From: Clostridiaceae bacterium
GTDB lineage: Bacteria; Bacillota; Clostridia; Saccharofermentanales; UBA5734
Reading direction: 5' to 3'
Length of the DNA stretch: 38,220 nucleotides
Assembly (NCBI GenBank): GCA_012727965.1
Contig: JAAYFZ010000449.1
Coordinates: 1 to 38,220 of the forward strand
Shown here: positions 12,000-38,220 of the stretch, piece by piece
How the letters are laid out: the number at the start of each line of letters is the position of its first letter
Position numbering within the stretch: position 1 is the stretch's first letter
Position numbers and translations under genes: made by a program
Notes under the pieces: model-generated
The model's database searches: none
The model's input: only the letters and a program-made list of their open reading frames with translations
Told to the model about the DNA's origin: nothing

Positions 12000-12440
12000 A
12001 TGGCTGATCACAAAATACATGCAGAAATAGTTACACCCTATGAGGTCTTCTTCGATGACATGGTTGATATGGTTATCGTATCATCCAAAGAGGGAGAAAT
12101 CGGTATACAGCCGGGTTATACACCTATGATGGCTGCCTTGACACCAGGTGAAATACGCTTGAAAACAGGTGACAAGGTAATGGTTGCATCAGGTACAAAC
12201 GGCTATGCCGAGGTTGGCAGAGATATGGTCATTGTAGTTGTTAATGCTGCTGAATGGGCAGAAGAGATTGATCTGCCTCGAGCAGAGAAAGCTTTGGCCA
12301 GAGCTGATAAGCGTTTCCACGACCCTGAAACTGATCCTCAGGAGCGGAACCATGCCAGACATGGTATTGAAAGAGCAAAAGCCCGCATTAAGATAGCTAA
12401 AAAGTATCAGGACAAATCCTATAGCGGCTCTTCATTTTGA
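12000..12440 (+). CDS. atpC: F1Fo ATP synthase epsilon subunit
   Basis: ATP-synt_DE-like beta domain (EIVTPYEVFFDDMVDMVIVSSKEGEIGIQPGYTPMMAAL) and C-terminal helices; position after atpD. Confidence 0.93.
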   Translation: MADHKIHAEIVTPYEVFFDDMVDMVIVSSKEGEIGIQPGYTPMMAALTPGEIRLKTGDKVMVASGTNGYAEVGRDMVIVVVNAAEWAEEIDLPRAEKALARADKRFHDPETDPQERNHARHGIERAKARIKIAKKYQDKSYSGSSF

Positions 12441-13660
12441 AAGAATAGCACATAATCAGCAAACTGAAGTCTGCAGCGGTCAGGCAGCAAGTATTCCTCA
12501 TTGCGATTTAAGCGGCGTCCGTCTAACCGGGTGCCGTTTTTTGAGCCCAGATCAGCAATAAAATATGAACCCTCATGTCTGCAAATGCGGGCATGTTTAC
12601 GGCCAACAGTCTTGCTTTCGAGACATAGATCAGACAGAGCTTCATCTCTACCGATTATAAATTCGTCAAGCAGAATGAAGGCTCTCTTGCCTTCGTTTTC
12701 CTGAGGTGTGCCCGGGAGTCCTTCTGAGAGGATCGCCATACCATAGCTATCTGCGTTTCGGCTGATCAGCTCTGTACAATTATTGGCTGATTTGCCCCTG
12801 AACATCTCTATATCTGGCAGCTTAAACAGTTTGCTTATTTTTGGAAGGGAGAAGGGCTTGTCAGTTCTAATGATAAAAATGATTCCAAACAAAACCAATA
12901 TTGTTGACATAATGATTTTGAATAAGCGCCAGTTAGGAATAATTTGAATTCTAAGGAGCAGCAAATAGACGGCTGCTGCCATCAGCCAGCCGATCAATAA
13001 TCTTGATCGGCCATTATACCTGTTTTCAAAGTTACCAGGCTGTTTCATAACTGCCATGAAGCGACTTTTTTTCTTTGGCGTTTTATTAATCATCATTTCA
13101 TTTTCAATCACTGATTTTGCAGCCGTTGTCAGTCCGGACCATTGGCCGGACTGATAGCTCTCCAAAAGTTCAAGCTGCAGATCATCAGAGAAACCATAGA
13201 ATCTGGCCCAATCAGGAATAAGCGATTCCTCTACCAAGTTATCATGGTCAACAATTGAGTTTGAAGGCAGGATAACAAGCATCGGTTGAATCTCGGTATC
13301 ATCATAAATGCTATTTTGATATCTGATCGTATCCGGATGGATCAGGATCTGCTGTGGCAAAAATAGATACTCTTCTGCCACACCTATTATTTCTGAAAGC
13401 TGAATCAACCTTTCCAGACCTGTCTTGGGTTTGCCCTTATGTTCGGCATCAACAGTTTCATAGGTATTATTCATGCCGAGTTCAGCAGAGATTATTAAGT
13501 GATCATTTCTCTTTATGACCGCCAGCGGAATAACTGATTCCATATCCCGACTGTTGATTAGCTGAAGCTGATAGTCGATAATTTTAGTATCTTGTTCCAG
13601 CGTGGCTATGAACTGGCTGCTTGACCTGCCAGACCTTATTTCCCAGTCTATATTTTCCAT
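12419..13660 (-). CDS. FHA-domain membrane protein (DUF6382-like N-terminus) of Tad locus A
   Basis: C-terminal FHA signature FIIGRDEALSDLCLESKTVGRKHARICRHEGSYFIADLGSKNGTRLDGRRL; central TM segments; last gene of the minus-strand pilus cluster. Confidence 0.82.
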   Translation of the reverse strand: MENIDWEIRSGRSSSQFIATLEQDTKIIDYQLQLINSRDMESVIPLAVIKRNDHLIISAELGMNNTYETVDAEHKGKPKTGLERLIQLSEIIGVAEEYLFLPQQILIHPDTIRYQNSIYDDTEIQPMLVILPSNSIVDHDNLVEESLIPDWARFYGFSDDLQLELLESYQSGQWSGLTTAAKSVIENEMMINKTPKKKSRFMAVMKQPGNFENRYNGRSRLLIGWLMAAAVYLLLLRIQIIPNWRLFKIIMSTILVLFGIIFIIRTDKPFSLPKISKLFKLPDIEMFRGKSANNCTELISRNADSYGMAILSEGLPGTPQENEGKRAFILLDEFIIGRDEALSDLCLESKTVGRKHARICRHEGSYFIADLGSKNGTRLDGRRLNRNEEYLLPDRCRLQFADYVLFFQNEEPL

Positions 13661-13678
13661 GTGAAGCCTGCTTTCGTT

Positions 13679-13915
13679 CTAGCTTAGTGTGTAGTCTCCC
13701 ATATTATCAATAATCGACTGATCAAAAACAGCATCGATAAGTCTGCCTGCATAGTCCGAAAGAGTTTTTCTGAAGATCAGAGCAACTGTAAGCAACACAG
13801 CTATAATTATTACTACCTCCAATGTACCGAAGCCATTACGAGAACGTAATGATTGAGCTAATTTACTGTTTTGAACCTTGTTTTGCAGTGAGCAGATCCA
13901 TGAAATAGTGAACAT
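13679..13915 (-). CDS. Flp-like pilin (Tad locus A); true start may be internal
   Basis: Type IV-like leader RNG|FGTLEVVIIIAVLLTVALIF with Glu at +5 followed by a hydrophobic helix. Confidence 0.72.
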   Translation of the reverse strand: MFTISWICSLQNKVQNSKLAQSLRSRNGFGTLEVVIIIAVLLTVALIFRKTLSDYAGRLIDAVFDQSIIDNMGDYTLS

Positions 13916-13969
13916 ATGACTCTCCTTTCATATTCTGTCGGTTATAACAACCACAATTAGTTTTCCTGA

Positions 13970-15607
13970 TCAATTTTGGATCATCAGCATTGCTGCTGCT
14001 GGTATCAGCGCTGTAGCTATAACAGCAATCAGGCTTAAACCGCAAGGTAGCAGGTATAATAGATTCTTTGTCTGAAGTTTTTTCTTAAGTTCATCTCTGT
14101 ATATCTGCCAGCTTGAAGCAGCTCCCAACGCAATAATTCCCAATACTTCATTTCCACCGTCTCTTTCATATCTAACGATTAAGTCGAGCACATATTTTAT
14201 CTGAAAAATCGTACACCGCCCTGACAACTCGCTTATCATGATTGCTGGTGAGACACCATTTTCCAGTTGTACCCTTAATTGCTTGAGTTCAGCTTCAAAA
14301 TAGTCAGTATCGCGCTTATCCTCGTGCTCTACATTTGTTGTGCCAGAACGACAGCATATCTGAATAGCTCTTTGAAGTGATAGACCGCTGCTTAGTAGAA
14401 TCGATAGAAGATTAAGCCACTGTGGAAACCTCATGTTTTCCTGGCTGCTTCTCAGACTATATCTGCTTAGTAGATACAGATCTTGCAGAAGCGGAGTCAG
14501 AGGCAATAGCAAGAAGAGATAAGCAAGAGTTATATCAAATATGGCAATAAGCAAAATTGCTATGCCACTAATCAGTAATAGAGCAAATTTAGCCGTGAAG
14601 AAGCCAAGCTCCATTGTTTCAAGAGTTAGAGAATATGTCTTACTATCAATTTTCAACTGAGAGCTGATACGTTGCCAGATATGCGCAGGAAGATATTCTT
14701 TGTATACGTTTTTGATAATTCTGCCGCCTTGTTCAAGTTTTGTTCGAATTATATTATCAGTTGATGATATTGTTCGAATACTTGAAGATGTTAGTGACAA
14801 TAGCAATTGTATTAATTTGCTGTTTTTGACCAATTTGTAATTGTCGTAAGAGCTGCTGCTGATCAGCAATGTTATTAGCAACGAACTACAGGCGGCAAGA
14901 TATACGACAGCCATAGCGTAGGTGCCCCATGTTGTACTGTATATGTGCGATTGGAAGCTGCCTGCATTTTTTAGGATAAGAGCCATCAAGAAAGGGGCTA
15001 TTGTCATGATGTATGTTTCAGTAGCCTTGCCGCTCTGTTCAGCCTCCATACTTCTTCTTAATTCAAGCCGTTCTCTGAGCATTCTTGTACAGTCTTGAAT
15101 ATATTGATCGATCCTGCCGCCGGATCGTCTTAGATTAGGAATAATCCCCAGAATCTGCTGAGCGCTCTTACAATCAAAATCTCTGACAAAAGTCTGGATA
15201 GAATGATCAAGGTCAAGGTGAATATTCAAACCGCTCCTAAGTTTATTCAGCGCCTTACTGAGTTCTCTATATTTATCGCTGCTTTGCTCGCTTATGTCTT
15301 CTGCGGCCTTGATCAGGCAGCTTTCAAGAGCAGCGCCGGTAGTAAGTGAAGTTGAAATATGGTCCATGAGCCAGAGAAACTGAAGCTCATAAGAATTCTT
15401 TCTGCGTCTGTTTCGATATTGCCTGATGACAAGAATCGCAGAAACAGACACTAATAGTACCGGCAGCAAACCTAGCTTCAAATCGTTCAGGAAAAAAGCG
15501 AAAGCCGCAGCGCTGGTAAAAACTATGAAGAAAACTCTGATCAGCTTCCTTAATATCAGGCTGATATATTCATTCCTAGTAGATGTTGTGATAGCAAAAT
15601 TCACCAT
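13970..15607 (-). CDS. TadB-TadC fused inner-membrane platform protein (two GspF/T2SSF-like halves)
   Basis: 545 aa with a duplicated organisation: TM pair, cytosolic helical T2SSF-like region (LLSSGLSLQRAIQIC...ELKQLRVQLENGVSPAIMISELSGRC), TM pair. Confidence 0.78.
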   Translation of the reverse strand: MVNFAITTSTRNEYISLILRKLIRVFFIVFTSAAAFAFFLNDLKLGLLPVLLVSVSAILVIRQYRNRRRKNSYELQFLWLMDHISTSLTTGAALESCLIKAAEDISEQSSDKYRELSKALNKLRSGLNIHLDLDHSIQTFVRDFDCKSAQQILGIIPNLRRSGGRIDQYIQDCTRMLRERLELRRSMEAEQSGKATETYIMTIAPFLMALILKNAGSFQSHIYSTTWGTYAMAVVYLAACSSLLITLLISSSSYDNYKLVKNSKLIQLLLSLTSSSIRTISSTDNIIRTKLEQGGRIIKNVYKEYLPAHIWQRISSQLKIDSKTYSLTLETMELGFFTAKFALLLISGIAILLIAIFDITLAYLFLLLPLTPLLQDLYLLSRYSLRSSQENMRFPQWLNLLSILLSSGLSLQRAIQICCRSGTTNVEHEDKRDTDYFEAELKQLRVQLENGVSPAIMISELSGRCTIFQIKYVLDLIVRYERDGGNEVLGIIALGAASSWQIYRDELKKKLQTKNLLYLLPCGLSLIAVIATALIPAAAMLMIQN

Positions 15608-16694
15608 GATCGATCCCTTTTACCTCGATTATTTCTTTTACCTGTCTATGACCTTCCGGAGTTCTTTCCAACTGGATGACGAGGTCGGCTGCCATACCGA
15701 TGAGCCGCCGGCAGGCGTCCCAGGGCAATGGAGAGTGCATGATCAGCATCAATGCAAGTCTCTCAAGCATGTCACCGGCGCTGTTTCCATGACCAGTGCT
15801 CATGGAGCCAGGATGGCCTGTATGCATAGCCTGTATCATTTCATAGGCCTCGCCGCCTCGGACTTCGCCAACGATTATTCTGTCAGGCCGCAAACGCAGA
15901 GATAGTCTGATCAAATCAGATAGGCTGATTTCGCCACTGCCATCTGGACCTGCCTTTCTTGCCTGGAGTCTGACCAGGTTAAGAGAATTTTGCAGATCCA
16001 GTTCTGCCTCGTCCTCGATAGTGACGATCCTTTCACCTAATGGTATGCATCCTGAAAGGGCATTGAGAAAAGTAGTTTTACCTGTGCCTGTACCACCTGA
16101 AATAAAGATGTTTCTCTTGCCTGCAACTGCTTGATTGAGAAAATCAGCCATTTGGGCTGTTAAGAAGCCAGCTTGAACAAGTATCTCCATTGCTGGTTTT
16201 ATTCCTCCGAAGCGTCTAATTGAAAGGTATGGGCCATCTGTCGCTGCCGGTTCCAGTACAGCTTGTACGCGTGAACCATCTTCAAGACGCATACCTGCAA
16301 TTGGAACCTGCTCGCTGATCAATCTATTTGCTCTGCCAAAACAGCGATCGATTAGACCTCTCAAATGATTCTGATCTTCAAAAACAAGCTGAGAACTGTA
16401 GATTATGCCTCTCTTCTCATAGAAGATACTATGAGGACCATTTACCATGATTTCTGTTATTTCCTGATCTTCAAAAAGCTCTTGCAAAACATCAAGACCG
16501 CGCATATCAGCGAATATCCTGGCGGCCAACTCTCTGTTTTCAGCCAAAGTGCTTTTCCTATCGGCCGAACTTGTCATCAGGGCTCTTAAAATAAGCGCTT
16601 TCAGCTGCTGATCTGATAGATTGGCACCAGAAGAGGATAGACTTACTACTTCTTCGATAATTCGCTGCCTGGTTGCACGATCTTTTACCATCAT
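15576..16694 (-). CDS. tadA: TadA/CpaF-family secretion ATPase (Tad locus A)
   Basis: FISGGTGTGKTTFLNAL Walker A, RIVTIEDEAEL, LRPDRIIVGEVRGGEAYEMIQAMHTGHPGSMSTGHGNSA. Confidence 0.95.
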   Translation of the reverse strand: MMVKDRATRQRIIEEVVSLSSSGANLSDQQLKALILRALMTSSADRKSTLAENRELAARIFADMRGLDVLQELFEDQEITEIMVNGPHSIFYEKRGIIYSSQLVFEDQNHLRGLIDRCFGRANRLISEQVPIAGMRLEDGSRVQAVLEPAATDGPYLSIRRFGGIKPAMEILVQAGFLTAQMADFLNQAVAGKRNIFISGGTGTGKTTFLNALSGCIPLGERIVTIEDEAELDLQNSLNLVRLQARKAGPDGSGEISLSDLIRLSLRLRPDRIIVGEVRGGEAYEMIQAMHTGHPGSMSTGHGNSAGDMLERLALMLIMHSPLPWDACRRLIGMAADLVIQLERTPEGHRQVKEIIEVKGIDHGEFCYHNIY

Positions 16695-17740
16695 ATCTTC
16701 AGCCTCTCCGCTAGCTGTTGCCTGCTCTCATATATATTGCAGCTGTTAGGTAAACTTGCCAGCATCAGCCCTGCTTCGCGGCGGGCGCTGGCAGCAGCGA
16801 AATCTTCTCCTGTTGATAGATCAAGCAGCAGATGGTCACATAGTGCAGCCAGTCTTCCGGCGGTCTGTATGCTGATATCGCGACAATCGACCCAACAATA
16901 CGTGTCTTGATCATCGCATTTCACTTTTTGTCTGATCAACAATAGCAGTTTTCGCAAGTGTTCCGGTTCACAGGAAATCAGATCATCTCCTCTCGCCGGA
17001 GGCCGAAACTGGAAATAACCATCCGGATGAAGCTGTGTGAATATACCGATTTTTTCTGCTTCAGGAGGACAATGCTGATGTATAGCTAACAATAACGATG
17101 AAAGATCAGGACCGGTTGAGTCGGGTGTACAGCATAAATGCATATTCCAGCTAGGCATGATTGCTAGATAATAGACTTTTTTCCCTTGTCTTATTTGTGC
17201 TCTCATCAGGTCTTGAAGACTTCTGCCAACATTGTCACTAAGCAAAAGGTGCATACACATAGTGCCTTCATTGGACATTTGCTGTTCCGATAGCATTTCA
17301 GGTTTTTCTGCTGACGATGCTTGTTCTGAATCTATGTTAGCCTGCAGTAAATTCAGTATATGGCTTACAGTTGCCGGCCACTTGATTAGGGTATTATCAT
17401 CCGTAATCCTGTCTGGCTTCTGGTTACCGCTGCAAAAATAATAAAATGAAGAACCCATATCGATGTCTGCTCTATTCAGATAAAAGCAAGCCAGGCAATG
17501 GTGATTACTTCGGCAATTACCGCAGCTTCGCGTGCAACCGTCTATGGCAGTGCCGAGAAAAAGCAGGGCTCTGCGCTGCGGTTGGCTAGAGTCGAAATTT
17601 GAGTTCATCGCTTCAAGCTCTGAGCTCACCGCAAATATTTCAAGACGCGTACTGTGCTGATAGTATCTTCTAAGCCTGTCTGCCAGAATGACATTATAAT
17701 TGTGATCATTGCTGGCAATGATGATCGTGTACAATTTCAT
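16691..17740 (-). CDS. TadZ/CpaE-like protein with receiver-like N-terminus, Cys-rich insertion and degenerate P-loop
   Basis: Position directly upstream of tadA (ATGA overlap); TadZ-like layout GKKVYYLAIMPSWN...FRPPARGDDLISCEPEHLRKLL; no Walker A; CTRSCGNCRSNHHCLAC. Confidence 0.6.
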   Translation of the reverse strand: MKLYTIIIASNDHNYNVILADRLRRYYQHSTRLEIFAVSSELEAMNSNFDSSQPQRRALLFLGTAIDGCTRSCGNCRSNHHCLACFYLNRADIDMGSSFYYFCSGNQKPDRITDDNTLIKWPATVSHILNLLQANIDSEQASSAEKPEMLSEQQMSNEGTMCMHLLLSDNVGRSLQDLMRAQIRQGKKVYYLAIMPSWNMHLCCTPDSTGPDLSSLLLAIHQHCPPEAEKIGIFTQLHPDGYFQFRPPARGDDLISCEPEHLRKLLLLIRQKVKCDDQDTYCWVDCRDISIQTAGRLAALCDHLLLDLSTGEDFAAASARREAGLMLASLPNSCNIYESRQQLAERLKI

Positions 17741-17978
17741 AGGGAACACCTCTTGATCAGCATTCTAAAACATTAAACATATGCTGTTTACGACCAACAG
17801 AAGACAAAATAATACAAAAAAGGCATTTGCTCGACAAAGGCCGTGCAGGACCTGCTATATGCAGTAAGTAATAATGGTAGAAGGTCAGGAAGAACATAAG
17901 ATACAGATATAGTATGAGTTTGTAGGAGGGCTTGCTCAGTCTTAATGCTCGTGGTAATATAAAGCAAATTCAGATCAA

Positions 17979-28790: not shown

Positions 28791-29558
28791 TCAGCTGAAC
28801 CAAGTAGCGCCGCCGTGATGAAGAAGCGCTCCGCAAAGGCTAAATAGAGCCAGCATTGGAGCCAGCCAGCGACCCGGCTGAAGATTCTCATTTCTGTTTC
28901 TATTGATCCACACATTTAATATAGCCAGCATAATTGCGGTTAGACCGCCAAATATAGCTGTACCAGGCCAGGCTGTCATCAAGCCTCCTGCCGCAGCGAT
29001 AATAATTTCATGACCGGGATGACGCAGCTGTAGCTGCCATAAACGTAACACATATAATAGAAGTGCCGTAAGCAGCATCGATAATAAGCCAACAAGGTGC
29101 AGCAGCCTATCAGCCTCAAGCATTGCATTTATAAACGCAGGAATAAATAACCAGAAATACAGAATGACAGGGGGTTTATTGTCGTCGAACCGGATCATCG
29201 ACCAGACGATAAGGGCGCTGGCGGTGACTGCGAGTAGAACAGCCTGTCCCAGCTTGATATCTAGTCCAGTCGGCCCCATTACTGCTGCTATCGCGGCAAA
29301 GACGGCCATGGTGGCTGTCTCGATGATTGCATAACGAGACGAAATGGGCTCGCTGCAGTAGCGGCATTTGCGTTTAAGCGCAAGGTAGCTGAAAACAGGC
29401 ACAAGATCACGCGCTGCCAGCTGATGTCCGCAAGATGTACAATGAGATCTGTCTGTTGTGATGTTCATTTTGCGTGGCAGCCTGTAAATACAGACATTCA
29501 GGAAACTACCTATAAGTGCGCCATAAAGGGCAAAAAGTACAATTATATAAGATGTCAT
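28791..29558 (-). CDS. Prepilin peptidase (A24 leader peptidase/methyltransferase)
   Basis: GSFLNVCIYRLPRKMNI, two CxxC pairs (CTSCGH, CRYCSEPISSRYAIIE), multi-TM C-terminal half. Confidence 0.9.
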   Translation of the reverse strand: MTSYIIVLFALYGALIGSFLNVCIYRLPRKMNITTDRSHCTSCGHQLAARDLVPVFSYLALKRKCRYCSEPISSRYAIIETATMAVFAAIAAVMGPTGLDIKLGQAVLLAVTASALIVWSMIRFDDNKPPVILYFWLFIPAFINAMLEADRLLHLVGLLSMLLTALLLYVLRLWQLQLRHPGHEIIIAAAGGLMTAWPGTAIFGGLTAIMLAILNVWINRNRNENLQPGRWLAPMLALFSLCGALLHHGGATWFS

Positions 29559-33244: not shown

Positions 33245-33270
33245 AGCAGGTGCCCTCAGGGGTGCCTGCT
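33245..33270 (+). terminator. Intrinsic terminator after clpX
   Basis: AGCAGGTGCCC-TCAG-GGGTGCCTGCT then TTTTT. Confidence 0.9.
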
Positions 33271-33338
33271 TTTTATATGCTGTTATCAAGTTATCTGCGG
33301 AGTCTATTAGATCTTTGCAATCAGGAGGTACAGGATAA

Positions 33339-34874
33339 ATGATCGACGGTGAATTCAGACACTTTGATAATGTAGCGGCTGAAAATTTGATCGCAGCTGG
33401 TATGAGAGGATCTACCTGGGTTGTTTATTCTGATGCCGGTAAACCGGAATATATTGCTAAGAAAAATGCTGTTTTTGCCGACATTACAGTTACTGAACTA
33501 CTTGAGCAGACGTGTCATCCTTGTTTGCCAAGATGTTTTGGCAGTTCATATATAGTTCCAACTGAGGATTCCTGCTGTCTCTTCGAATATGTTGAGGGCC
33601 AGGTTTTGAGCAATTATTCGGAAACTGACATAAGAGTCATAAGCAATTTGTTTTCGCAGCTGTTTGATCTGTTGACATTTATTCAGACAATGTTTGACAA
33701 ACCGCTTCTTCACCTAGATATTAAGCCAGATAACATCATAATACGAAAAAATGGATTGCCTGTTCTTATTGATTTCGATTCCGCTTGTCTAGATCCGCAT
33801 AATGTCAAGAGCTGTACCCACCGTTATGCTGCACCTGAACACCGAGGTGGAAGGCCGCAGACAGCAAGCGATACTTATTCGCTGGCACTTGTCATGTTTG
33901 AGTATTTGCTTAAGAAGTCTGTATCGGTAATCTCAGAAACACCACTTGCAGAGTTAGCCTCATCACTGCCTGCAGAATTATCAGCTGTAAGCAGAGTGCT
34001 CGTCCGATGTCTGGCTGCAGATCCAAATGAACGGCCTCATCCTGATGAGGTTGCCTCAGCTCTCAAACAGTCAAGAATTGTTGATTTACATCAAGAAAGA
34101 GAGAGTCAGGAAGATTTGCCCTGCGAAGACGCATCTGTCATCTGTGTCTGGCATTCGGCAGAAATGGCTTGTGAGCTAGCTGCTGCTGCTACGAAGCATA
34201 AGAAAAACGTTCTACTTATAGATGCAGATTGGCTTGATCCGCGATCTGATCTTTTGTTAGGCCTGGAAAAAATTGATCGTAAAAGCATGGGTTCAGTGCT
34301 GACGGCATATCTCGATTCGGCACTAAATGCTGCAAGAGATGGCAATCTTGATTTCGATAAACTGCAGTCATTGTCCAGGAAGACTGCGGTTCCAGGGCTG
34401 TCGCTCTTGATGCCTTCTGGAAGATTTGAGTATTTTGAGCGAGAATTGTCTGCTGATTTCTGTCAGGTTATCAGTTTGGCCAGAAAACATTATGAACTGG
34501 TTATAATTTTGGCTGGACCTCTGATTTATGATGATTTGACCTGTGTTTCTCTAGCTCTGGCAGATCGTGTCATAACCGCAGTCCATGCGAATACCGCCGA
34601 CCTCAGAACTATTGGTCGGATCATGACATTTATGCGTCTATATCAGCTTGCTGACATGAACAAATTTCATATAGCGGCACATGACTATCAGAAGGGGCAG
34701 GAGCTGAGTTTATCATCACTAAATGAACTTTGTAATGACAGGCTTATAGGAACTGTGTCATACGACCAGAGACGTCGAGGTCTTGTCGGTAGCAGTAAAC
34801 CCTATGCTTTGATGCCGTCACGGGCAAATAAGAAAGAATATAGAGCCATGTTCAGGAAGCTGAACATAATTTGA
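33339..34874 (+). CDS. Hanks-type Ser/Thr protein kinase fused to a TadZ/MinD-like domain
   Basis: Kinase: GMRGSTWVVY loop, IAKK lysine, HLDIKPDNIII, IDFDSA, YAAPEH, ADPNERPHPDEV. C-terminal: SVICVWHSAEMACELAAAATKHKKNVLLIDADWLDPRSDLLLGL (Walker A' type strand, degenerate P-loop); immediately precedes tadA. Confidence 0.85.
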   Translation: MIDGEFRHFDNVAAENLIAAGMRGSTWVVYSDAGKPEYIAKKNAVFADITVTELLEQTCHPCLPRCFGSSYIVPTEDSCCLFEYVEGQVLSNYSETDIRVISNLFSQLFDLLTFIQTMFDKPLLHLDIKPDNIIIRKNGLPVLIDFDSACLDPHNVKSCTHRYAAPEHRGGRPQTASDTYSLALVMFEYLLKKSVSVISETPLAELASSLPAELSAVSRVLVRCLAADPNERPHPDEVASALKQSRIVDLHQERESQEDLPCEDASVICVWHSAEMACELAAAATKHKKNVLLIDADWLDPRSDLLLGLEKIDRKSMGSVLTAYLDSALNAARDGNLDFDKLQSLSRKTAVPGLSLLMPSGRFEYFERELSADFCQVISLARKHYELVIILAGPLIYDDLTCVSLALADRVITAVHANTADLRTIGRIMTFMRLYQLADMNKFHIAAHDYQKGQELSLSSLNELCNDRLIGTVSYDQRRRGLVGSSKPYALMPSRANKKEYRAMFRKLNII

Positions 34875-34933
34875 ATGGTCTTATGTCTGATATAGGTTCA
34901 ATCTATACAGCAAAAACAATAGGAGTACTGACT

Positions 34934-36217
34934 ATGAGCTTGATCCAATCACCTGAATTGCTTGTACAGACGATAGCAAGCTGTGGCGTTTCATCAGACA
35001 GCAGTTTTTGTATGTTTAGTGATCGCTCTGATCAACAGAAAGAGGGAGATAGCCTTACTGATTTGATCAGCAAGGTTTGCATACGAATTCTCGATGAGCA
35101 CCCAGAACTTGCAGCTTCCGCTGACGAAGGGAATGACAGAGCAGCTCTCAAAGATTTGATCGTGAAGTATGCAGAGGAACTGAGCATTCGTGCTGGACTT
35201 TACCGAAATCAACTGCAGCAGCAAGTGCTTGACTCGCTTTTTGGCTACGGTCCTTTGCAGTATCTGATCGATGACCCGGACATATCAGACATTGATGCTG
35301 TATCGCCAACTGAAATCACCGTTAAGAAATTCGGTGTGCGTATGCGTGTTAGTACTGCCTTCGAGAGTTCTTCTGCCTATGAAACTTTCTGCCGTCTTCT
35401 GATAATACGACAGGGCGGACTAATCAATGAAAATGACAGTCATTGTCGAGTGACTGATTCGAAGCGACGGCTACGCATAAATGTAACTGTTCCGCCAAGA
35501 AGTGTAGAACATTCCAGTCTTAGTATTCGTAAGCATCCAAGCGTCTCGTTAAGCTTAGAAGATCTCGCGGCTGCTGGTATGTTTGAGCCATCGGATACTA
35601 CTCTGTTATCAGATATCGCCGGATCACAGTGCAGTTTTCTTATTTGTGGCAAAGGAGGATCAGGCAAGACAACTCTGTTGAGAGCCATGATCAATGCCAT
35701 GCCTCCGCTCGAACGGGTCTTAATTGCTGAGAGTGATTCTGAAATTTATGCTGACAAACCCTGCTGTATGAGCCAGCGCATCAGAAGAGTTAATGAAGGC
35801 GGCAGGCCGGTTAGTTTGCGTGATCTGGTTTCTGATGGTTTGACTATGTCGCTTGATACCTACTGCATAGGTGAAATCGTAGGTGATGAAGCTTATGAAT
35901 TTATGCGCGCTGCTTATTCAGGACATCGTTGCCTGGCTACGATCCATGCAATCAGCGCTGAAGATGCGCTTGATCGTCTGATATCGCTGGCCAGAACTGT
36001 ATCAGCCGGTGAACAAGATTACTCGCTAAAACAGATGCTTGCTAGAAGTGTAAATATGATCATTTATCTAAACTCGTTCAAGGTCCAAAAAATAGTGAAA
36101 GTCAATGGGTATAACAAGGAGAAGGATTCATATGCATTTGAAATTATCCGGGAAAAGGAAAATGAGGAAACAAGTGATTATACTTACCTCGGCACTGAGT
36201 CGCTGGTGCCAAGTTAA
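34934..36217 (+). CDS. tadA: TadA/CpaF-family secretion ATPase (Tad locus B)
   Basis: GYGPLQYLIDDPDISDIDAVSPTEITVKKFG, FLICGKGGSGKTTLLRAMINAMP, YCIGEIVGDEAYEFMRAAYSGHRCLATIHA; AGGAG upstream of ATG 34934. Confidence 0.93.
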   Translation: MSLIQSPELLVQTIASCGVSSDSSFCMFSDRSDQQKEGDSLTDLISKVCIRILDEHPELAASADEGNDRAALKDLIVKYAEELSIRAGLYRNQLQQQVLDSLFGYGPLQYLIDDPDISDIDAVSPTEITVKKFGVRMRVSTAFESSSAYETFCRLLIIRQGGLINENDSHCRVTDSKRRLRINVTVPPRSVEHSSLSIRKHPSVSLSLEDLAAAGMFEPSDTTLLSDIAGSQCSFLICGKGGSGKTTLLRAMINAMPPLERVLIAESDSEIYADKPCCMSQRIRRVNEGGRPVSLRDLVSDGLTMSLDTYCIGEIVGDEAYEFMRAAYSGHRCLATIHAISAEDALDRLISLARTVSAGEQDYSLKQMLARSVNMIIYLNSFKVQKIVKVNGYNKEKDSYAFEIIREKENEETSDYTYLGTESLVPS

Positions 36218-36698
36218 ATCCGATCTCATTTATGCCTTCGAACAAACTCTGAATGCGGATATATCTGAAGATCTCAAAGAGTCCATCAGGGCTATGCTAA
36301 ACAGGATCAAGGGTGGTATGCCACTTGAACAGGCCCTGGACAAATTCAGTGAGTTCTCGCATCAGGAGCAATTTCTTGACCTGATTGCTGCGGTAAAAGT
36401 AAATACACGTCATCGAGGTGATTTGCCTGTGCTCATGGAGACGCTTGAACTCCAGTTTTTTAGACTTGAGGAGGCATATCAGCAAAGAAGAATCAGCAGC
36501 AGAACAGACCTTCGCAGTACCATTTTGTGCTTCGCATTTGGCTTCGTTGTTTTTGCCGGCCGCATAATCAGCAATGAAAGTGTGAGATCAGCATTTTTAT
36601 CGTCAGCCATAGGCTTTTTACTTCTAATTGCGTCGATTGTAAGCTTCGCCTCAGGCCTGGCAATATTACTGATCATAATTAGAAGAATTAATGATTAA
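36132..36698 (+). CDS. TadB-like platform protein (short, T2SSF-like)
   Basis: LKESIRAMLNRIKGGMPLEQALDKFSEFSHQEQFLDLIAAVKVNTRHRGDLPVLMETLE followed by two TM helices; AGGAG before ATG 36132. Confidence 0.78.
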   Translation: MHLKLSGKRKMRKQVIILTSALSRWCQVKSDLIYAFEQTLNADISEDLKESIRAMLNRIKGGMPLEQALDKFSEFSHQEQFLDLIAAVKVNTRHRGDLPVLMETLELQFFRLEEAYQQRRISSRTDLRSTILCFAFGFVVFAGRIISNESVRSAFLSSAIGFLLLIASIVSFASGLAILLIIIRRIND

Positions 36699-37530
36699 GG
36701 AGGCTGTTGTCGTGAAATACCTTCTCCTGTTCGTGGTTGCTATTCTGTTGATCTTCTTGATATATCGGCTAATACCAGCGATTATCTGCCGGTCGAGCTC
36801 GCTATTGAAGGAAATCAGAAGACAGATGGACAATGATCATGACGAACAATTGAACGATATTAGCTTGAAATCAACAAATCTGATTACCAGTGTGCGCAGT
36901 TTGTTGCAAGCAGCTGGAATAAGCAGTAAAAAGAGTCTGCTATATCTGTGTTTAGCTTATATGTTGCTTCCAATTTTACTTGTTATAAGTGGAAACAACC
37001 ATACCTTGCTATTAGGTCTCTGCTGGATCTGTTTACTGAATAGTATGATTTCAGCGCAAGCGAAGAAGAGATCACAATATTTCGGCAGTCTGCTCTATAA
37101 AATATATCGATTCATAAATATGGAGCTTGATTCCGGTCTGCTGCTGGGCGATATTCTAGTTTCTTTACCTGAATCTGCGAACGATCAGGAGTTGCGTCTA
37201 GCTCTTGAAAAAATGTCTGCCGCCTGGCAGCTAACAGGCGATCTGGATTTAGCCCTTCGTGAACTAGAACTGAAATTCGGTAAGCATGAGACTGCCCTGT
37301 TGGCGAATAATCTCAGACAGTGTCTGGTGACTGGTGTCGCCGGCAAGGCTTTTGCCCAGATGGAGAACCTTCTTTTTGCCCGTTATGTTGAGCATGTCCG
37401 CAGGAGAAGTAAGCAACTTCAGAGTGCATTGTTGTTATGTGCAGTGCTCGCACTCTTACCTGTTATGATCCTTATGCTCTGGCCAATCATTACCGAAATG
37501 TTGAATTCGCTGGGCAGTATATTCAGTTAG
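36691..37530 (+). CDS. TadC-like platform protein
   Basis: N-terminal TM, mid TM pair, FINMELDSGLLLGDILVSLPESANDQELRLALEKMSAAWQLTGDLDLALRELELKFG T2SSF-like region, C-terminal TMs. Confidence 0.75.
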   Translation: MIKEAVVVKYLLLFVVAILLIFLIYRLIPAIICRSSSLLKEIRRQMDNDHDEQLNDISLKSTNLITSVRSLLQAAGISSKKSLLYLCLAYMLLPILLVISGNNHTLLLGLCWICLLNSMISAQAKKRSQYFGSLLYKIYRFINMELDSGLLLGDILVSLPESANDQELRLALEKMSAAWQLTGDLDLALRELELKFGKHETALLANNLRQCLVTGVAGKAFAQMENLLFARYVEHVRRRSKQLQSALLLCAVLALLPVMILMLWPIITEMLNSLGSIFS

Positions 37531-37625: not shown

Positions 37626-37850
37626 ATGAAAAAGAAAATGAGGATTGAAAAAACGTCTAAATTTAAGCTTGAAAGAGCCGCTCTTCTTAACAGGAGAGGA
37701 TTTGGTATCAATGAGGTCATTGGTATAGCCGCAGGCATCATAATTGCAGCTGCCATAATCATTCCTGGATTGAAAGAGTTTTCGGGAACCGTTATTGCCC
37801 AGCTAACAACTTGGTGGTCGTCTTTGGCTGCAGAAATATTCCAGGGTTGA
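37626..37850 (+). CDS. Flp-like pilin (Tad locus B)
   Basis: Leader RRG|FGINEVIGIAAGIIIAAAIIIPGL with Glu at +5; small size; follows tadC. Confidence 0.7.
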   Translation: MKKKMRIEKTSKFKLERAALLNRRGFGINEVIGIAAGIIIAAAIIIPGLKEFSGTVIAQLTTWWSSLAAEIFQG

Positions 37851-37855
37851 CTGAA

Positions 37856-38220
37856 ATGGGTCGCGTAATTGTGATAGCATTTGGAATCATGATCATGACA
37901 ATTATACTGGTTCAATCGATTCTCCTGATGATTCCTTTTATCAAAAGGGTGGAGTTTGATGATCTATGCTATCAGTACTCAGCCAGACTCATTCGAGATG
38001 GTGAACTTGACGAGAGCGAGAGATTGCAATTGAGCCAGGACCTGGAGTCGCTTGGTTTTAGAAATAGCAGCTGCAGCTTTCCTGACGATGTATCCGCAGA
38101 CTGCTTCATAATAAAAGTGCGGGCATTTTATCCTATGAAACGTATTATGCCTGATTTCACTACAAGGGAGTTGATGATGCCATTTCGATTCAACATATCA
38201 TCAATCGCAAGACTAGAAAC
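37856..38220 (+). CDS. Partial TadE/DUF4320-like pseudopilin, continues beyond the window
   Basis: Open frame from ATG 37856 to the window end: MGRVIVIAFGIMIMTIILVQSILLMIPFIKRVEFDDLCYQYSARLIRDGELDESERLQLSQDLESLGF; N-terminal TM; position after the pilin. Confidence 0.6.
   Translation, partial: MGRVIVIAFGIMIMTIILVQSILLMIPFIKRVEFDDLCYQYSARLIRDGELDESERLQLSQDLESLGFRNSSCSFPDDVSADCFIIKVRAFYPMKRIMPDFTTRELMMPFRFNISSIARLE

Follow-up and report, generated by a model that had tools for sequence, protein, structure and literature searches.

A Hanks-type kinase domain joined to a TadZ/CpaE half at the head of a clostridial Tad pilus operon

We identified a single protein in which a Hanks-type Ser/Thr kinase domain is joined to a CpaE/TadZ half, encoded at the head of a Tad pilus operon in a Clostridiaceae bacterium (contig JAAYFZ010000449.1; the window, that is, the whole stretch analysed, is the complete contig of 38,220 nucleotides). 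The two domains were found independently by HMM search, profile-profile comparison and fold comparison. The fusion occurs in many anaerobic bacteria of one class. We somewhat favor the interpretation that the protein is a TadZ-type scaffold with a pseudo-ATPase half and a kinase input module that phosphorylates pilus-related targets. The features of the locus are as follows.

33245..33270 (+), intrinsic terminator-like hairpin of 11 pairs with a T tract, between clpX and the fusion gene
33323..33328 (+), Shine-Dalgarno sequence AGGAGG of the fusion gene
33339..34874 (+), kinase-TadZ fusion gene, 511 aa, a single ORF (Pkinase E 7.8e-14; hhalign to CpaE 99.1%; AF2 pLDDT 81.5)
33396..34073 (+), Hanks-type Ser/Thr kinase domain, aa ~20-245, with K41, D127, K129, N132, D145 and E167 kept
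34131..34871 (+), CpaE/TadZ (MinD/ParA-fold) half, aa 265-511, from hhalign and Foldseek
34871..36217 (+), CpaF/TadA-type T2SSE ATPase, TTG start uncertain (Pfam T2SSE 1.2e-25; TIGR03819 2.7e-39, under the cut-off)
36105..36698 (+), TadB-like T2SSF platform protein, start uncertain (weak Pfam match; the same slot holds TadB in relatives)
36691..37530 (+), TadC-like T2SSF platform protein (Pfam T2SSF 1.4e-5)
37626..37850 (+), small Flp-type prepilin, 74 aa, with a cleavage-like RRG/FGINE(VIG) motif (relatives L022 and L023)
37811..38218 (+), TadE-like pseudopilin, clipped by the contig end (a relative weakly matches DUF4320)

The Tad (type IVc) core is present, with a CpaF-type ATPase, TadB, TadC and an Flp prepilin, and the gene order is tig-clpP-clpX-[kinase-TadZ]-cpaF-tadB-tadC-prepilin-tadE-like, the start of cpaF overlapping the stop codon of the kinase-TadZ gene. 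An earlier note, made from the sequence alone, had proposed a kinase fused to a TadZ-like domain heading a Tad operon, and both halves as well as the cpaF-tadB-tadC-pilin-tadE neighbors were recovered here. The Tad cluster of the window ends at the contig edge; in relatives it runs on with a tadF-like gene, an RcpC/CpaB-type SAF protein, araC and folE-folP. No Pfam match was obtained for the small prepilin, and the Tad operon of the window showed neither an FHA nor a PP2C gene. Three other accounts of the locus were considered and rejected: read-through from clpX into the fusion gene, by the strong terminator between them; a T7SS component, as no T7SS genes surround the locus, although the kinase module is common to both; and a viral origin, as viral contigs gave no match.

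The fusion gene is one open frame of 511 codons for amino acids, with an ATG start and the ribosome-binding site AGGAGG upstream, and the AF2 model of the full protein has a pLDDT of 81.5. Both halves lie in one frame in 19 of the 22 sampled genomes of the same family, not counting that of the window; in two of these 22 (genus g4), the kinase is present and this Tad operon is absent. A pair of genes merged by a frameshift, in this sequence only, was one of two outcomes that the earlier note had itself named as fatal to its proposal. We found no point in support of such an artefact, whether by frameshift or by misassembly; a stop-free single frame in 19 further sampled genomes of the family, and in many families unrelated to it, leaves it next to no probability.

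The kinase half was matched by Pfam Pkinase (E 7.8e-14, residues 60-238), phmmer and profile searches with it returned PknB, StkP and other kinases, and the AF2 model of the fusion protein matches kinase folds. The motifs that had been read by eye are where they were reported: IAKK at 39-42, HLDIKPDN at 125-132, DFD at 145-147, APE at 165-167 and DPNERP (NERP at 230). The window protein carries the ATP-binding Lys (K41), the HxD Asp (D127), K129, the Asn (N132), the DxG Asp (D145) and the APE Glu (E167). Among 20 members of the window's family, D127, K129, D145 and E167 do not vary. N132 is present in 17, with His in its place in the other three (L023, L026 and L039); K41 gives way to Arg or Met in four of the 20 (L023, L026, L028 and L039), and to Arg also in the partial sequence L040. 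Throughout the family, the Gly-rich loop and the alpha-C Glu are absent, and the Arg of HRD is replaced by Leu (HLD, non-RD), except for Cys in L038. Hence the proposal that the catalytic Lys, Asn and Asp are retained holds for the window protein itself, and does not extend to an intact N-lobe or to the relatives that have lost the Lys or Asn. Judged on sequence, the kinase of this family is divergent, not a textbook one, and because of the gaps in the N-lobe and the loss of Lys or Asn in several relatives, kinase activity is not assured; for the window's lineage we infer catalysis from the residues that are kept.

The fused kinases of nine other families (f15, f16, f19, f25, f27, f65, f77, f81 and f87) keep the Lys, the alpha-C Glu, the RD pair, the Asn and the DFG Asp, and a Gly-loop is also present in most of them; Pkinase scores of fused proteins in other families reach down to 1e-51. 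In view of these canonical kinases, the wider family is likely to act by phosphorylation. In a subgroup of f42 (L191, L202 and L203), the catalytic Asp is replaced by Asn or Ser and the ATP-binding Lys by Glu, so that these are apparent pseudokinases, still fused to TadZ. Fused pairs are under purifying selection (dN/dS 0.05-0.25), including the L023/L026 pair with K to R and N to H replacements (dN/dS 0.23). A second, full-length Hanks kinase was found in 10 of 10 genomes checked, and some genomes contain just two Hanks kinases, the fused one and the separate full-length one, so phosphoproteomics could assign substrates cleanly in them.

The main rival interpretation is that the kinase-like domain needs no catalysis and, akin to a pseudokinase, serves as a scaffold or switch that binds partners from the position otherwise occupied by the receiver-like domain. 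We regard it as possible, though on the whole rather unlikely, and for the window's lineage it is a serious one, given the missing Gly-loop and alpha-C Glu, the replacement of K by R or M and of N by H in some members, the purifying selection that persists in L023/L026, and the f42 proteins that stay fused despite the lost catalytic Asp. It also has a precedent in EssB of T7SSb, the cytoplasmic pseudokinase domain of which binds FHA domains (PMC11217815). Against it stand the invariance of D127, K129 and D145 in the window's family, with N132 in 17 of 20, and the full set of catalytic residues in the TadZ-fused kinases of other families. The pseudokinase versions in sister lineages let catalytic and scaffold roles be told apart.

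With the C-terminal half as a single sequence, Pfam yielded a weak AAA_31 match (E 0.0035, below the Pfam cut-off), whereas a family profile of this half reached Etk/Wzc, MinD, FleN and ParA-type chains. In hhalign comparison with canonical CpaE ATPase domains, the probability was 99.1% (E 6.9e-19, 232 columns), and the AF2 model of this half (pLDDT 86) matched MinD/ParA in Foldseek with a best E of 9.5e-11 and TM up to 0.78. The ParA/MinD-like fold suggested for this half was thus borne out by both profile and fold, and a C-terminal half unlike TadZ/MinD, the other outcome named as fatal, was not what we found. As was also suggested, a canonical Walker A is missing (ICVWHSAEMACELA): all through the window's family, ICVW....xCELA stands where the P-loop would be, with no Gly-Lys-Thr, and the Walker B Asp is substituted by other residues. 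We therefore call the C-terminal half of this family a predicted pseudo-ATPase. Among the features that define TadZ/CpaE, the MinD/ParA-fold domain and the adjacency to cpaF-tadB-tadC-pilin are present, and the receiver-like N-terminus and Walker A are absent.

Across the window's class, a CpaE half matching the A2 profile was present in 43 of 388 genomes. The N-terminus was a kinase in 31 of them (16 families; two cases are clipped by a contig end) and receiver-like in 12, a ratio that is biased because the profile was seeded mainly with kinase-type proteins. The same architecture had been suggested as something to look for beside cpaF in other genomes, and the kinase-TadZ gene was indeed found directly 5' of cpaF and platform genes in six families, the window's and five others, a count that includes f15, whose contig retains just cpaF and the start of tadB. 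In f18, f19, f69 and f81, the genes behind kinase-TadZ are those of a different ATPase operon, of T4P-like type. Spread beyond the class was not supported, as 398 genomes sampled across the phylum gave only two weak matches besides the window. In fused proteins tested from other families, Pfam detects the kinase only, so that routine annotation would probably label them serine/threonine kinases, which may be the reason these fusions were overlooked.

As a separate observation, a kinase-TadZ or receiver-TadZ adjoins a T2SSE/PilB-like ATPase, not CpaF, at L176, L177, L187 and L190, which is the same module in another type IV filament operon.

Related CpaE halves with a receiver-like N-terminus occur in equivalent operons at L181, L182, L183 and L186, and the receiver-type N-terminus aligns to the CpaE receiver with 94.5% probability (E 7e-8) by profile comparison, which was used because a single-sequence Pfam scan is nearly blank for most receiver-type proteins of the subfamily. 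In the CpaF tree, kinase-type and receiver-type operons fall into one strongly separated CpaF subfamily. The CpaF tree requires two changes and the CpaE tree five; when only well-supported branches are counted, the minimum is one and two, respectively. Thus, the modules were swapped at least once. To our knowledge, the function of the TadZ N-terminal domain is not settled; a swap of receiver-like and kinase domains on one scaffold implies that regulatory input enters TadZ through its N-terminus, and the receiver and kinase forms of TadZ are a natural comparison set to test this idea. A broader proposal, which we rate a little short of even, is that a clostridial Tad subfamily is switched directly at its base by Ser/Thr phosphorylation, with TadZ bearing its own kinase and the receiver-like and kinase input modules interchanged.

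In genus g4 (L046 and L047) and in family f3, the same kinase is encoded alone, adjoining clpX, and this Tad operon is absent; the sole CpaF of these genomes is distant (23-31% identical over long matches). The g4 solo kinase has Lys replaced by Arg and Asn by His. In the kinase tree, the solo kinases and the fused kinases of the window's family lie on one well-supported side (100/97). Here, the g4 kinase is nested among the fused ones, so that the solo form in this genus looks like a fission remnant, and the f3 kinases are placed next to the window pair, a placement that is poorly supported. The solo kinases are under purifying selection (dN/dS 0.15-0.21), and their retention in genomes that lack the operon weakens the idea that the kinase serves this pilus alone. 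They are also the ground for another explanation, namely, that the role of the kinase, as a neighbor of clpX, is mainly independent of Tad and that the fusion arose as a side effect of gene order. We consider this improbable, for a terminator parts clpX from the fusion gene, the fusion occurs in differing neighborhoods in other families, where neighborhoods were read, and in the tree the solo kinase of g4 branches from within the fused ones, like a fission remnant.

Under the favored interpretation, the protein would be a TadZ/CpaE-type pilus organizer with a Hanks Ser/Thr kinase where the receiver-like domain usually is. Its MinD-fold half would be a nucleotide-dead scaffold bound to the Tad base that CpaF, TadB and TadC form, and the kinase half would act as a regulatory input module. 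The most likely substrates would be TadZ itself, other parts of the Tad machine or a partner with an FHA reader, and pilus assembly could thereby track a cytoplasmic signal. The N-lobe gaps, the losses of Lys41 and Asn132, the f42 pseudokinases and the kinase that outlives the operon in g4 and f3 count against this reading. Either Ser/Thr phosphorylation or a scaffold in the shape of a kinase may control the pilus; of these, phosphorylation control is plausible.

Two further loci in the window are of note. A second Tad-type locus (12419-17749, minus strand) encodes a TadZ-like protein without a recognizable P-loop, CpaF, a protein with two T2SSF stretches and a DUF6382-FHA protein. In several relatives, the DUF6382-FHA protein shares a contig with a distant CpaF, and it could act as a phospho-reader. 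Beside tig, a prepilin-peptidase homolog (28791-29558, minus strand) has an intact A24_N methylase half, GHE instead of GxGD and no recognizable protease half, which in several relatives is wholly missing; a full prepilin peptidase is encoded elsewhere in the genome (G000:C431).

Compared with known systems, the window protein is a variant of TadZ, and the suggestion that no system of this layout has been described agrees with our search for the kinase-TadZ fusion, which covered open-access literature and found no description. It resembles TadZ/CpaE in the C-terminal MinD/ParA fold, the atypical P-loop, the gene position just 5' of cpaF-tadB-tadC and the cytoplasmic location. The TadZ/CpaE proteins with an N-terminal receiver-like domain include Eubacterium rectale TadZ (Xu et al. 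2012, as cited in PMC11217815), whereas the window protein has a Hanks kinase domain instead. Furthermore, TadZ is described as retaining ATP binding with low ATPase activity (PMC6668835), whereas in the window's family neither the Lys/Thr of Walker A nor the Asp of Walker B remains. With the PrkC/PknB-type Hanks kinases of Bacillota, the protein shares the kinase fold, the HxD, K+2, N and DxG elements and related sequence; it differs from them by its fusion to CpaE, the lack of a transmembrane or PASTA part, and the family's HLD (non-RD) motif and missing Gly-loop.

The kinase/PP2C/FHA modules associated with T7SS (PMC11217815) are similar in that kinases lie within clostridial envelope-machine clusters, but they are without the CpaE half, and no T7SS genes were seen around the window locus. 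As an observation on these modules, the fused kinase domain of f77 (L172) is 52% identical to the L217 kinase on the Agathobacter rectalis plasmid NZ_CP143948.1, where PP2C, kinase and FHA genes follow one another and a WXG100 protein is also encoded. TsfV of T7SSf is likewise a case of a TadZ-type module mixed into another machine; unlike the window protein, it consists of a TadZ-like receiver and an AAA+ domain, with no kinase fusion (PMC11217815). The nearest described systems are the T7SS clusters that combine genes for a kinase, a phosphatase and FHA proteins, together with TsfV and its TadZ-like receiver (PMC11217815).
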